Positions 18,817 through 23,568 of a stretch of DNA of 64,000 nucleotides are shown here, one piece after another. The number at the start of each line of letters is the position of its first letter. Positions within the stretch are counted from its first letter, which is position 1. The translations under genes and the position numbers were made by a program. The notes under the pieces are model-generated. The model was not told the DNA's origin and searched no databases. It was given only the letters and a program-made list of their open reading frames with translations. This stretch comes from Solirubrobacteraceae bacterium (lineage in GTDB: Bacteria; Actinomycetota; Thermoleophilia; Solirubrobacterales; Solirubrobacteraceae): positions 58,699 to 122,698 of the forward strand of contig JAJCYD010000024.1 in NCBI GenBank assembly GCA_029263125.1. Reading direction: 5' to 3'.

Positions 18817-20136
18817 TTACGCGCGACCCCTCAATCTGGCGAGATCCTGCTGAAAGCCCGGGTAGGACACGGCCGCAGCATCGATCCCGACGACCTGCAC
18901 CCCCTCGTGTGAGGCCAGGCCCGCCACCGCCCCGAGCATGGCCATGCGGTGATCGCCTGCGGCGTCGATCGTGCCGCCACGCAGCCCACGGCATCCGGCG
19001 CCCGAGACCACGAAGCCGTCATCGGTCGCCTCGATCTCAGCGCCCAGGCCGCGCAGCCCGTCGACGACCCCGGCGATGCGGTCGGACTCCTTGACACGCA
19101 GCTCCTGCGCGCCACGCACCACGGTTTCGCCCTCGGCGAAGCAGCCCAGCAACGCGACCAGCGGCAGCTCGTCGATCGCGAGGGGCACCTCCTCCGCGGC
19201 CACGGCCGTGCCACGCAACGGGCCCGCCGCGACGGCGAGGTCACAGATCGGCTCGGCCGAAGCGACCGCTGCGCCGGTCCCGGGGACCGCTTCGAGCTCA
19301 CCCTGCACCGCGGCTCCCATCCGCTCGAGAATCCGCAGGAATCCGGTGCGCGTCCAGTTCACCCCGACATCGCGGACGGTGACCCGCGATCCCGCGACGA
19401 GCACGGCCGCGGCGATCATGAACGCCGCCGACGAGAGATCGCCGGGCACGACGATGTGCTGCGCGTGTAGCGAATCGACCGGCTGCAGGCTGACGTCGAG
19501 GCCGTCCCGAGCAATCCGAACGCCCGCTCCGGCGAGCATCCGCTCGGTGTGATCGCGGCTTGGCGCGGGCTCGGTCACCGTCGTCGTGGCGTCGGCGCAC
19601 ATCCCCGCGATCAGCACGCACGACTTCACCTGCGCGCTGGCGACCGGCAGGACGTAGGAGATCGCGCGCAGGGCACGCCCACGAACGAGAAACGGCGGGT
19701 AGCGGCCGTCCGTCGCCTCGATGACGCCCCCCATCCTGCGCAGCGGCTGCGCGATGCGATCGACCGGGCGCCGGCGGATCGAGGCGTCGCCGTCGAGCTG
19801 GAACGTGCTCCCCTCCTGCGCGGCAAGCCAGCCCGGCAGCAGGCGCATCAGCGTGCCAGCGTTGCCGACGTCGATCATCGCCCCGTCCCCCGCGCCGCGC
19901 AGGCCGACGCCCTCGACGACGACATCGTCGCCCTCCAGCCTGACGCGAGCCCCGAGCACGCGGATGGCATCCAGCGTCGACGTCGTGTCCTGCGCGTGCA
20001 GGTAGTTGACGATCCGCGCGGTGCCGCTGGACATCGCGCCGAAGAGCGCGGCGCGATGGGAGATCGACTTGTCGGCCGGGGCCGTGACCGACCCCTGCAG
20101 CCCGGCCGTGGCCGGCGCGAAGAACGCGTCGCTCAT
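18817..20136 (-). CDS. aroA: 3-phosphoshikimate 1-carboxyvinyltransferase (EPSP synthase)
   Basis: APADKSISHRAALFGAMSSGTARI; GNAGTLMRLLPG; ELRVKESDRIAG. Confidence 0.97.
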   Translation of the reverse strand: MSDAFFAPATAGLQGSVTAPADKSISHRAALFGAMSSGTARIVNYLHAQDTTSTLDAIRVLGARVRLEGDDVVVEGVGLRGAGDGAMIDVGNAGTLMRLLPGWLAAQEGSTFQLDGDASIRRRPVDRIAQPLRRMGGVIEATDGRYPPFLVRGRALRAISYVLPVASAQVKSCVLIAGMCADATTTVTEPAPSRDHTERMLAGAGVRIARDGLDVSLQPVDSLHAQHIVVPGDLSSAAFMIAAAVLVAGSRVTVRDVGVNWTRTGFLRILERMGAAVQGELEAVPGTGAAVASAEPICDLAVAAGPLRGTAVAAEEVPLAIDELPLVALLGCFAEGETVVRGAQELRVKESDRIAGVVDGLRGLGAEIEATDDGFVVSGAGCRGLRGGTIDAAGDHRMAMLGAVAGLASHEGVQVVGIDAAAVSYPGFQQDLARLRGRA

Positions 20137-21185
20137 GCGGCCGGGTAGCCCAGGCCGCTCACCAGTTCGATCGCGCGAGCGGCGTCGCCGTCACAGACCC
20201 ACAGCGCGATGACCCCCGTCCGGTTGTCGGGCTCGGGGGCCAGGGTCATGTCGGCGATGTTGATGCCCGCACGACCGAGCTGCAGCGCGATCTGCGCCAC
20301 CGTCCCCGGCTTGTTGGGCACCGACACGCGGATCTCGCGCGAGCTGTCACCCTGCATGCCGACCTTCAACAGCGCGGCGCGGTGCAGCGCCGCCTGCGCC
20401 TGCCAGCCGCTGAGATCGCCGTCCTCGCGCAGCAGGTCGCGCACCTCCCCCAGGCGCAGCAGAAGCTCGTCGATCTGCGCGCCGAGCGCGGCCGCGTTCG
20501 CCCGATAGATCTGCCCCCACAACGGCGGGTTGGATCCCGCGACGCGGGTCGCGTCGCGAAAGCTCGGACCGGTCGCGGGCAGCGTCGCGCCACCGAGCGC
20601 CTGTGCGGCCTGCTCGACGAGCAGGTTCGCCACGACGTGTGGCAGGTGTGAGACCGCGGCCATCAGGCGATCGTGCTCGGCCGCGTCGATCGCGGTCGGG
20701 ACCGCGCCGAGCCCGGCGACGAAGCGTGCGAGGCGTTCGTAGAGCACTCCGGGCGTTCGCTCGCGCGGGGTGAGATACCACGTCGCGCCGTCGAACAGGT
20801 CCTCTCGCGCATGCGCGACGCCGACCGATTCCGCGCCCGCGAGCGGGTGCCCGCCGACGAACTGCTCGCGGTCGACCGCCTCCACGAGCGCCTGCTTCGT
20901 CGAGCCGACGTCGCTGACGACGGCGTCCGGCAGCCGTTCGCAGAGGTCACAGACCGCGCCCTGCAGCGCATCGACCGACACCGACGCGATGGCGACGTCG
21001 GCCGGCCCGAGATCGTCGAGGCTGTCGACGGCCTCGTCGATCGCGCCGCGCCGCAGCGCGATCTCCAGCGCCGCAGGGCTGCGGTTCCAGCCGACGACAT
21101 GTGCTCCGAGCCGCGCGCGGGCCGCGAGACCGATCGAGCCGCCGATCAGGCCGACGCCGAGCAGCGCGACCCGCGGCGCGCTCAC
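20133..21185 (-). CDS. tyrA: prephenate dehydrogenase with C-terminal ACT domain
   Basis: LLGVGLIGGSIGLAAR; VGGHPLAGAESVG; VSVPNKPGTVAQIALQLGRAGINIADM. Confidence 0.95.
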   Translation of the reverse strand: MSAPRVALLGVGLIGGSIGLAARARLGAHVVGWNRSPAALEIALRRGAIDEAVDSLDDLGPADVAIASVSVDALQGAVCDLCERLPDAVVSDVGSTKQALVEAVDREQFVGGHPLAGAESVGVAHAREDLFDGATWYLTPRERTPGVLYERLARFVAGLGAVPTAIDAAEHDRLMAAVSHLPHVVANLLVEQAAQALGGATLPATGPSFRDATRVAGSNPPLWGQIYRANAAALGAQIDELLLRLGEVRDLLREDGDLSGWQAQAALHRAALLKVGMQGDSSREIRVSVPNKPGTVAQIALQLGRAGINIADMTLAPEPDNRTGVIALWVCDGDAARAIELVSGLGYPAA

Positions 21186-22261
21186 GCCACCGCGCGCCGG
21201 GCTCGCACCGCTGCGGCGAGCTCGTCGAGCACGTCGACCGTCGTCTCCCAGTCCATGCAGGCGTCGGTGATCGACTGTCCGTAGGTCAGCTCACCGCCAA
21301 GGTTCTGGCGACCGGCGACAAGGAAGGACTCCAGCATGACGCCGACGATCGCCGTGCTGCCGGCGGCGACCTGCTCGCCGATCCCTGCGGCGACCTGGGG
21401 CTGGCGCTCGTGGTCCTTGGCGCTGTTGGCATGCGAGGCGTCGACGACGACGCGCTCTGGCAGCCCGGCCGCGCGCAGCCGTGCGAGCGCTCCCGCGACA
21501 CCATCCGGTCCGTGGTTGGGCGCACCGTCGCCGCCGCGCAGGATCACGTGGCCGTCGGGGTTGCCGCTGGTGTGCAGGATCGCCGGCGTGCCGCTGAAGT
21601 CCACGCCGGCGAATGAGTGCTTGCCCGCGGCCGCCCGAACGGCGTCGACGGCGACCTGGACGTCGCCGTCGGTGCGGTTCTTGAAGCCGACGGGCATCGA
21701 CAGTCCCGACCCGAGCTGGCGGTGGATCTGGCTCTCGGTCGTGCGGGCGCCGATCGCCCCCCACGCCACGGTGTCGGAGATGTACTGCGGCGTCACCGGG
21801 TCGAGGAACTCGCAGCCGACGGGCAGCTTGAACGCCAGCACCTCGAGCAGCAGGGCCCGTGCCGTGCGCAACCCGAAGTCGACGTCGCGCGAGTCATCGA
21901 GGTGCGGGTCGTTGATGAGGCCCTTCCAGCCCGTCGTCGTGCGCGGCTTCTCGAAGTACACGCGCATCGCGATGCAGAGGTCGGCCGACAGGTCGCTGGC
22001 CTGCTCGCTCAGGCGCTGTGCGTACTCCAGTGCCGCGACGGGGTCGTGCACGCTGCACGGCCCGACGACGACGAGCAGCCGGTCGTCTGTGCCCTGAAGG
22101 ATCGCGTGCGTCGCGGCGCGGCCCGAGACGACGACCTCGGCCAGCTGCGGCTCCAGCGGCAGGCTCGCGATCAGGCTCTGCGGCGTTGTGAGCGAGGAGA
22201 CCCGCTCGATGCGACGGTCGCGAATTCCCGACGCGAGCTCGGCGGCGGTTGCGGGAACCAT
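21182..22261 (-). CDS. aroF: 3-deoxy-7-phosphoheptulonate synthase, class I (AroF/G/H type)
   Basis: VVVGPCSVHDPVAALEYAQRL; FEKPRTTTGWKGLINDP; GARTTESQIHRQLGSGLSMPVGFKN. Confidence 0.97.
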   Translation of the reverse strand: MVPATAAELASGIRDRRIERVSSLTTPQSLIASLPLEPQLAEVVVSGRAATHAILQGTDDRLLVVVGPCSVHDPVAALEYAQRLSEQASDLSADLCIAMRVYFEKPRTTTGWKGLINDPHLDDSRDVDFGLRTARALLLEVLAFKLPVGCEFLDPVTPQYISDTVAWGAIGARTTESQIHRQLGSGLSMPVGFKNRTDGDVQVAVDAVRAAAGKHSFAGVDFSGTPAILHTSGNPDGHVILRGGDGAPNHGPDGVAGALARLRAAGLPERVVVDASHANSAKDHERQPQVAAGIGEQVAAGSTAIVGVMLESFLVAGRQNLGGELTYGQSITDACMDWETTVDVLDELAAAVRARRAVA

Positions 22262-22263
22262 GG

Positions 22264-22308
22264 TCAGGCTCCCGGGCGAGACGGTCGTCGTGTCATGCCG
22301 ATCATCAC
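22264..22308 (-). CDS. possible 14-aa uORF immediately upstream of aroF (MMIGMTRRPSRPGA)
   Basis: AAAGGACTTG SD-like sequence then GTG ATG ATC...; TGA ends 2 nt before the aroF ATG. Confidence 0.35.
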   Translation of the reverse strand: MMIGMTRRPSRPGA

Positions 22309-22353
22309 TGCAAGTCCTTTCGAGAAGACGCCTGGAGACGGATGGTCCTGCGG

Positions 22354-22401
22354 GGCGCTCGGCGGGAAGGGCGGTGAGACAGGGGTGGTGAGCCGAGCGC
22401 C
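22354..22401 (-). promoter_or_regulatory. hairpin between leader ORF and DAHP synthase (candidate attenuator)
   Basis: Perfect 10-bp inverted repeat GGCGCTCGGC / GCCGAGCGCC with 28-nt loop; 5' arm overlaps the leader stop codon. Confidence 0.65.
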
Positions 22402-22475
22402 TAGATAAATCGCCAGGCGAAATAGCGACGAGCGAACCAGAAGGTGGTACGGCTGCTGTCGCTCGTGCGGCTCAT
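22401..22475 (-). CDS. aromatic-rich leader peptide MSRTSDSSRTTFWFARRYFAWRFI
   Basis: 24 codons, 7 of the last 13 residues are F/W/Y (FWF..YF.W.F); lies between hisC stop and the DAHP synthase hairpin. Confidence 0.7.
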   Translation of the reverse strand: MSRTSDSSRTTFWFARRYFAWRFI

Positions 22476-22488
22476 TCGGATGCCAATG

Positions 22489-23568
22489 CTAGAGCACGTC
22501 GCCCAGCGCGTCGAGAAAGCGGACGTTCTGCGTAGGCGTGCCGTAGGTCACGCGCAGCGCCCCCGGACGCCCGAGCGCCCCTCCGGCTCGCACGATCACG
22601 CCGCGCTCGGCGAGCCCGGCGACGACCTCGGACTCGTCCACGTCGCCGGGGAGATCGAACCAGCAGAAGTTCGCCTGCGACGCGGCCGGCTCGATGCCCA
22701 GGTCATTCAGCCCGCTCTCGATCTCCACGCGCGCGACGACGGCGCGCTCGACGCGTTCCGCGACGGCGTCCTGGTGGCGCAGCGCCTCCACGGCCGCCGC
22801 CTGCGCGGCGACGTTGCAGAAGAACGGCTGGCGCACCTGGTCGACGGCGCGCGGGAAGTCCTCCGAGCCGCACAGCGCGAAGCCGACGCGCATCCCGCAC
22901 AGGCCATAGACCTTGGAGAAGGTGCGCAGCAGGACCAGGTTGGAATGCTTGGCCAGCAGATCGAGCGTCGTATCGGGGTCGTCGAGCAGGTTGAACTCGC
23001 AGTAGGCCTCGTCGACGATCAGCGCGATGTGGCGCGGGACGCGCTCGACGAACGCCGCGATGTCGGCGAACGCCAACGCGGTCGACGTCGGGTTGTTGGG
23101 GTTGCAGACGATCACCAGGCGCGTGGCGGCCGTGATCTCCGTGGCCATGGCGTCGAGGTCGTGGCACTGCTCGTCGTCGAGCGCGACGGTGATCGCCCGC
23201 GCGCCCGACGCCGCCGCGAGGTGCGGATAGACGCTGAACGACGGCCACGCGTAGACGAGCTCGGCACCGGGCTCCAGCAGCGCCTCGCCCGCCGCGAGCA
23301 AAACGTCGCACGAGCCGTTCCCGATCGCGATGCGCGCGGATGGCACGCCGTAGCGGTTGCTCAGCGCCCGCTTGAGCTCGGAGTTGGAGGGGTCCGGGTA
23401 GCGGTTGGCTCCCGCGACGGCGCGCTGGGCGGCGGCGACGACGGCGTCCAGCGGCGGGTCTGGCGACTCGTTGGAGGCGAGCATCGCGACGTCGTCGCCG
23501 AGCGCGTAGGCGCCGGCCGTCGGGTAGACGGGAATCCGTCGGATGCGCTCGGAGAACTCGATGGCCAT
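22489..23568 (-). CDS. hisC: histidinol-phosphate / aromatic aminotransferase (HisC-like)
   Basis: LASNESPDPPLDAV; NPNNPTSTAL; VLLRTFSKVYGLCGMRVGFAL. Confidence 0.9.
   Translation of the reverse strand: MAIEFSERIRRIPVYPTAGAYALGDDVAMLASNESPDPPLDAVVAAAQRAVAGANRYPDPSNSELKRALSNRYGVPSARIAIGNGSCDVLLAAGEALLEPGAELVYAWPSFSVYPHLAAASGARAITVALDDEQCHDLDAMATEITAATRLVIVCNPNNPTSTALAFADIAAFVERVPRHIALIVDEAYCEFNLLDDPDTTLDLLAKHSNLVLLRTFSKVYGLCGMRVGFALCGSEDFPRAVDQVRQPFFCNVAAQAAAVEALRHQDAVAERVERAVVARVEIESGLNDLGIEPAASQANFCWFDLPGDVDESEVVAGLAERGVIVRAGGALGRPGALRVTYGTPTQNVRFLDALGDVL

Follow-up and report, generated by a model that had tools for sequence, protein, structure and literature searches.

A short reading frame rich in aromatic codons, lying between a gene for a HisC-type aminotransferase and the genes for aromatic biosynthesis, raises the question of whether its translation controls those genes and, if so, through which RNA structures. 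The locus is part of the window, a stretch of 64,000 nt from a Solirubrobacteraceae bacterium. Comparison with related genomes makes it likely that the region is a ribosome-mediated attenuator of the DAHP synthase, tyrA and aroA genes, that it senses the charging of aromatic tRNAs and that it is specific to Solirubrobacterales. The element is near-universal in this order, stands ahead of the entry enzyme of the shikimate pathway and combines Phe, Tyr and Trp codons in a single leader.

The genes that had been named from the sequence alone as hisC, DAHP synthase, tyrA and aroA were confirmed by NCBIfam and Pfam profile matches (Table 1). The aminotransferase matches TIGR01141 (3.2e-82) with 276.2 bits, slightly below the cut-off of 276.55, and Pfam Aminotran_1_2 as well. 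Its TAG stop codon occupies positions 22491-22489 on the minus strand, and the leader ORF begins 13 nt further on. The position and letters of this ORF check out as originally described, including the Phe, Trp and Tyr residues that make up seven of its final 13. The perfect 10-bp stem with a 28-nt loop, which had been proposed to overlap the leader stop, is also present, the first base of the stem being the G of TAG.

Table 1. Features of the leader region and the neighbouring genes in the window.
Feature	Position	Strand	Basis or remark
HisC-type aminotransferase gene	22489..23568	-	ORF and profile matches; 5' neighbour of the element
-10-like hexamer TAGCAT on the hisC stop, 10 nt 5' of the leader ATG	22486..22491	-	weak match
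Leader peptide ORF, MSRTSDSSRTTFWFARRYFAWRFI followed by stop	22401..22475	-	24 codons, predicted coding
Aromatic codon run F W F... Y F. W. F	22407..22442	-	sequence
Conserved core TGG CGA TTT ATC TAG	22401..22415	-	116-locus comparison
P3 hairpin CGCCUGG-[CGAUUUAU]-CUAGGCG	22398..22419	-	predicted minimum-energy fold and third-base constraint
P1 stem-loop, GGCGCTCGGC (22401-22392) / GCCGAGCGCC (22363-22354), 28-nt loop	22354..22401	-	covariation
P2 3' arm CCAGGCG, immediately 5' of the SD; proposed long-range helix with CGCCTGG (22419-22413)	22329..22335	-	permutation tests
Shine-Dalgarno GAAAGGA of the next reading frame	22315..22321	-	sequence; SD-like in relatives
14-codon ORF (GTG ATG ATC GGC ATG ... 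TGA)	22264..22308	-	sequence; start compared with relatives
DAHP synthase type Ia (aroFGH family), regulated gene	21182..22261	-	TIGR00034, 1e-145
tyrA, prephenate dehydrogenase with ACT domain	20133..21185	-	Pfam PDH_N, PDH_C, ACT
aroA, EPSP synthase	18817..20136	-	TIGR01356, 7e-111

The core at the 3' end of the leader reads TGG CGA TTT NNN TAG GCG NNC GG. With at most two mismatches, the pattern TGGCGATTTANNTAGGCGNNCGG occurs in 185 of the 232 genomes of Solirubrobacterales, as opposed to one of 232 for the reversed pattern that served as a control, and the core pattern is found in 95 of the 112 high-quality genomes of the order. This recurrence is far beyond chance. In the relatives whose sequences were read, a near-identical block stands at the same place 5' of the DAHP synthase genes. 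The original prediction had named homologous regions keeping neither the aromatic codons nor the stem as the finding that would speak against it; when such regions were compared, the leader proved to have retained both.

Convincing copies, as judged with a covariance model, are confined to Solirubrobacterales, with the exception of a single contig that was probably misbinned. The ten exact core matches in a phylum-wide sample all belong to this order. When GTDB contigs were scanned with a slightly relaxed pattern, nearly all of the matches listed were from Solirubrobacterales, Thermoleophilaceae, Conexibacter and Solirubrobacter, and the few scattered unrelated records among those listed (Marinimicrobia, Enterobacter, Rheinheimera) are expected by chance. 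The covariance model, run against 399 genomes of the class, gave two matches beyond the order, one of which is weak and lies inside a coding frame. The other is a real full copy (L261, G808:C119) from a genome of 70% completeness that is placed in a different family of the class. The DAHP synthase of that genome shares 74% identity with an in-order enzyme, and the contig was probably misbinned or horizontally acquired. In the other orders of the class, the DAHP synthase gene generally follows directly after hisC, without such a leader. Inside the order, the element is absent from one family (f4) and from several small-genome lineages. The window region matches no family of Rfam 15, either at the gathering threshold or with E up to 5.

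An apparent second copy in the window's own genome (G000:C17, E 0.006) was rejected as a chance match, since its surroundings do not resemble a leader and it falls within open coding frames; weak model matches in four further genomes (G623, G080, G142, G536) are also situated in coding DNA. In one genome (G605) the element is present twice, on separate contigs (L114 and L115), which may reflect duplication or a mixed bin.

The coding properties of the leader were compared at 116 distinct loci, which had been selected by the pattern with two mismatches allowed anywhere. The leader frame stays open for about 20-40 codons back to a start codon, apart from one contig that ends early. In the eight codons preceding the core (-8 to -1), the share of Phe, Tyr and Trp, averaged by genus, is 33% in frame, as opposed to 6% and 1% in the other frames and 3% further upstream. 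All three amino acids are present in 114 of the 116 leaders. The aromatic positions vary and Tyr is encoded by TAT as well as by TAC, which implies that conservation acts on the amino acid and not on the RNA alone. TAT is found 104 times and TAC 94 times in the leaders, while TAT is the minority codon in the genes of the window (8 vs 28).

The last codons of the leader vary far less: CGA is found at 116, TTT at 115, TAG at 114 and TGG at 112 of the 116 loci, counts that are somewhat inflated because the pattern used for selecting the loci includes the core. In the window genes, CGA represents 10 of 197 Arg codons and TTT 6 of 55 Phe codons. The comparison indicates that the core is under constraint at the RNA level besides coding. 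Some lineages drop the Trp codon, with CCG, CTG or CGG in its place, yet retain CGA TTT; in one genome (G541), part of the core is lost and the sequence reads CGAACC. At two loci (L104 in G590 and L116 in G034), the TAG stop has become CAG and the leader is 4-8 codons longer (WRFSQALG and WRFRQALGRSSS, each followed by a stop). In families f1 and f3 (e.g. L131, L043, L067), another conserved stretch, which resembles GUA[GC]A[GU]UU and in part also the core CGAUUU, is located 20-30 nt 5' of the DAHP synthase Shine-Dalgarno (SD) sequence.

Beyond the leader stop, the P1 stem covaries, and this is well supported. Its pairs were tabulated for 103 loci. The covariation test counts 33 cells with double changes, compared with 11.4 +/- 6.8 after shuffling (0 of 500 shuffles as high), and 93% of the cells are paired, a share that drops to 33-47% on sliding. 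An extra hairpin breaks up the stem in some genera. The original prediction had remarked that no U-tract follows the stem, and this was borne out: a T-rich stretch follows none of the 103 P1 stems, and TTTTT occurs in one of 106 loci. A role of P1 as an intrinsic terminator was rejected on these counts. It is most likely a structure of the ON state or a scaffold.

A structure competing with P1 had originally been sought in the 8-bp inverted repeat of the leader (ACGAGCGA/TCGCTCGT), cores of which were to pair with the downstream stem. When congeneric genomes were inspected by eye, this repeat was not kept letter for letter, and it was rejected as a switching arm. The better competitor of P1 would be P3 (CGCCUGG / CUAGGCG), a hairpin that pairs the Trp codon with the stop codon, encloses a conserved octaloop and is incompatible with both P1 and P2. 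It is part of the predicted minimum-energy fold of the window, and at least 4 bp of it are possible in 110 of 116 loci. The base 5' of TGG is a pyrimidine in all 116 loci, and in the codon before TGG none of 62 fourfold codons ends in a purine, as opposed to 15-38% at other positions. No compensatory double changes were found in P3 among the compared loci, so its support is indirect and does not extend to proof by covariation.

In the helix P2, the Tyr and Trp codons would pair with sequence immediately 5' of the next SD or overlapping it. This pairing is only moderately supported by permutation of the sequences. The P2 signal lies 5.5 sd beyond a global permutation, in which control segments were null; when genera were permuted within families it reached only z = -2.5 (5/400), and a swap test within genera gave no signal (p = 0.27). 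Free duplex folding of leaders with their own or swapped downstream regions (-37.7 vs -37.0 kcal/mol) was uninformative in this GC-rich DNA. A pairing of CGATTT with the downstream region was rejected, the control segment spanning the core being without signal.

Transcription of the leader appears to start close by. A -10-like hexamer, mostly 7-10 nt 5' of the leader start, is present at 70 of 116 loci vs 3.4 in shuffled sequence. At the 66 loci with TA[CA]AAN, TG is found in all, giving the extended -10 TGNTA[CA]AAN, and in 55% of these 66 loci a -35-like hexamer matches at four or more of six positions (9% when shuffled). In most relatives, the extended -10 (TGNTACAAA) is situated at the 3' end of hisC. 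An SD-like 4-mer precedes 5 of 66 leader starts, compared with 72 of 77 DAHP synthase starts. Given this promoter signature and the rarity of an SD ahead of the leader, transcription probably begins from within the 3' end of hisC and yields a near-leaderless mRNA. The original idea of an internal attenuator is therefore to be modified. Its sensing part, with three aromatic tRNAs, agrees with the aromatic leader, with the DAHP synthase-tyrA-aroA order behind it and with the joint presence of Phe, Trp and Tyr in 114/116 leaders. An attenuator working merely on read-through from hisC is not what most relatives suggest, since they have an extended -10 of their own.

These elements can be joined into a model of attenuation in which stalling, the assignment of the ON and OFF states and an output on translation initiation or Rho access are inferred. 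The promoter at the end of hisC would initiate transcription, and the leader ORF would be read from an mRNA whose 5' untranslated region is very short or absent. A shortage of Phe-, Tyr- or Trp-tRNA would stall the ribosome in the aromatic codon run, where it would mask segment 1, around the Trp codon, leaving segment 2, from the stop codon onward, free. P1 could then fold from segments 2 and 3, and segment 4, which lies before the DAHP synthase SD, would be released (ON). With charged aromatic tRNAs, the ribosome would reach the stop and depart, upon which segment 1 could pair with segment 2 (P3) or with segment 4 (P2) and expression would fall (OFF). The first base of P1 lies 14 nt after the first base of the Trp codon, and the footprint of a ribosome stalled at this codon would have its edge roughly at the first base of P1. 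In simulations with a ribosome mask, the accessibility of the SD rose on average only from 0.42 in the free RNA to 0.50 with a ribosome stalled at Trp, with almost no change in the window. The attenuator probably works through DAHP synthase translation, the likelier of the two, or through Rho, and not through an intrinsic terminator. That its output is specifically the initiation of DAHP synthase translation is about an even bet.

Rho-dependent transcription attenuation would keep the same sensing, with the ribosome gating access of Rho to a pyrimidine-rich, C-rich stretch past the leader stop. This mode of action is less likely than not. It has been suggested for terminator-less actinobacterial cys leaders (PMC1262725), and it would be in keeping with the absence of an intrinsic terminator here (0/103 T-rich stretches after P1, TTTTT in 1/106) and with the C-rich, G-poor loop of P1 in the window. 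Across the families, however, the alignment reveals no conserved C-rich unpaired tract, the P1 loop often being a GC-rich hairpin of its own, and the P2 signal close to the SD would be left unexplained. The near-invariant CGA TTT has no necessary place in the attenuator model. The near-invariant CGAUUU in the P3 loop could itself be the real sensor, bound by a protein or arresting the ribosome, while the aromatic codons just tune the response. This we regard as unlikely. The strict conservation of CGA (116/116) and TTT (115/116), despite their being minority codons (5% of Arg and 11% of Phe codons in the window genes), argues for it, as do the retention of the core where the Trp codon is lost and the constrained third base before TGG; a pure RNA-binding site would, on the other hand, have no need of an in-frame aromatic enrichment with varying positions and synonymous codons, and a few loci lack parts of the core (CGAACC in G541).

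A further reading is that the hairpin between Trp codon and stop codon, with its near-invariant CGAUUUAN octaloop, serves as a recognition element of its own for a protein, the ribosome or a trans-acting RNA. This proposal is a speculative one, to which a low probability is given; if true, one leader would join codon-based sensing of three aromatic amino acids with a sequence-specific second input. It is, finally, very improbable that the leader ORF is a mere device for translation reinitiation or transcript stability that senses no amino acid. Non-sensing leader ORFs have been proposed to boost translation by reinitiation (PMC4833913), but such a function would explain neither the in-frame aromatic run, nor the occurrence of Phe, Trp and Tyr together in 114/116 leaders, nor the link to aromatic biosynthesis.

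The closest parallels are the LEU element of Actinobacteria and the aroR leader 5' of aroF in Corynebacterium glutamicum (Neshat et al. 2014, cited in PMC11802643), which was detected by RNA-seq in PMC4046766. As described in PMC11802643, aroR contains a Phe-Tyr-Phe run, acts by transcription attenuation in response to Phe and not Tyr, and raises expression when ribosomes stall under Phe limitation. Like aroR, the present leader encodes a short aromatic peptide ahead of a DAHP synthase gene in an actinobacterium. Unlike aroR, it also includes Trp, has up to seven aromatic residues and a near-invariant RNA core, and lacks a terminator with a U-tract; the gene setting, hisC-DAHP synthase-tyrA-aroA, also differs. 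In the LEU element 5' of leuA of Actinobacteria (Seliverstov et al. 2005, PMC1262725), a codon run pairs with the downstream SD region, for which P2 would be an only moderately supported counterpart here, although the amino acids and the gene are different. An internal pseudoknot like that of the LEU element was not seen in the alignments read by eye. With the classical trp and phe attenuators of Proteobacteria and the trp leaders of Streptomyces and Corynebacterium, the element would share the four-segment logic of mutually exclusive hairpins that overlap the leader end. It differs from them in having no intrinsic terminator, three aromatic amino acids instead of one, and near-invariant CGA TTT and TAG codons. 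Rfam Trp_leader (RF00513) is also an aromatic leader RNA, but the window region has no Rfam 15 match.

For the Phe and Tyr genes of Actinobacteria, the survey of 2005 (PMC1262725) had found no upstream RNA structure that is conserved. A text search for leader peptides in Solirubrobacter or Conexibacter returned nothing relevant, and the literature searched describes no attenuator of the common aromatic pathway in Solirubrobacterales. The element probably represents an order-specific form of leader-peptide attenuation that falls outside the intrinsic-terminator class and is absent from Rfam 15. It offers a comparative system for how one leader integrates three amino acids and for attenuation without an intrinsic terminator, with the near-invariant CGA-UUU core as a concrete target for explanation.

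The enzyme encoded behind the leader is not always the same. For 102 of the 116 loci, a DAHP synthase was recognised 3' of the leader. A simple motif count over three families assigns type Ib (TIGR01361, with a ferredoxin-like domain) to at least 65 loci and type Ia (TIGR00034) to about 37. Many type Ia proteins begin with MMIGM or MIIGM, resembling the MMIVM (MMIVMK) of type Ib. Because both types occur behind the same leader and share start motifs, the subclass of DAHP synthase seems to have been exchanged with the leader and the old start region left in place. The 14-codon ORF of the window is likely a remnant of the start of a type Ib DAHP synthase that was replaced by type Ia. This ORF (22308-22264) has a good SD and ends 2 nt 5' of the aroF ATG, so that translational coupling is possible. 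A congener (L039, G006:C85) carries type Ib and type Ia genes in tandem behind a single leader, a possible intermediate of replacement. At another locus (L270, G092:C172), a degenerate leader (W R F V stop, with TTC for TTT) stands directly 5' of tyrA, and the DAHP synthase gene is located elsewhere in the genome.
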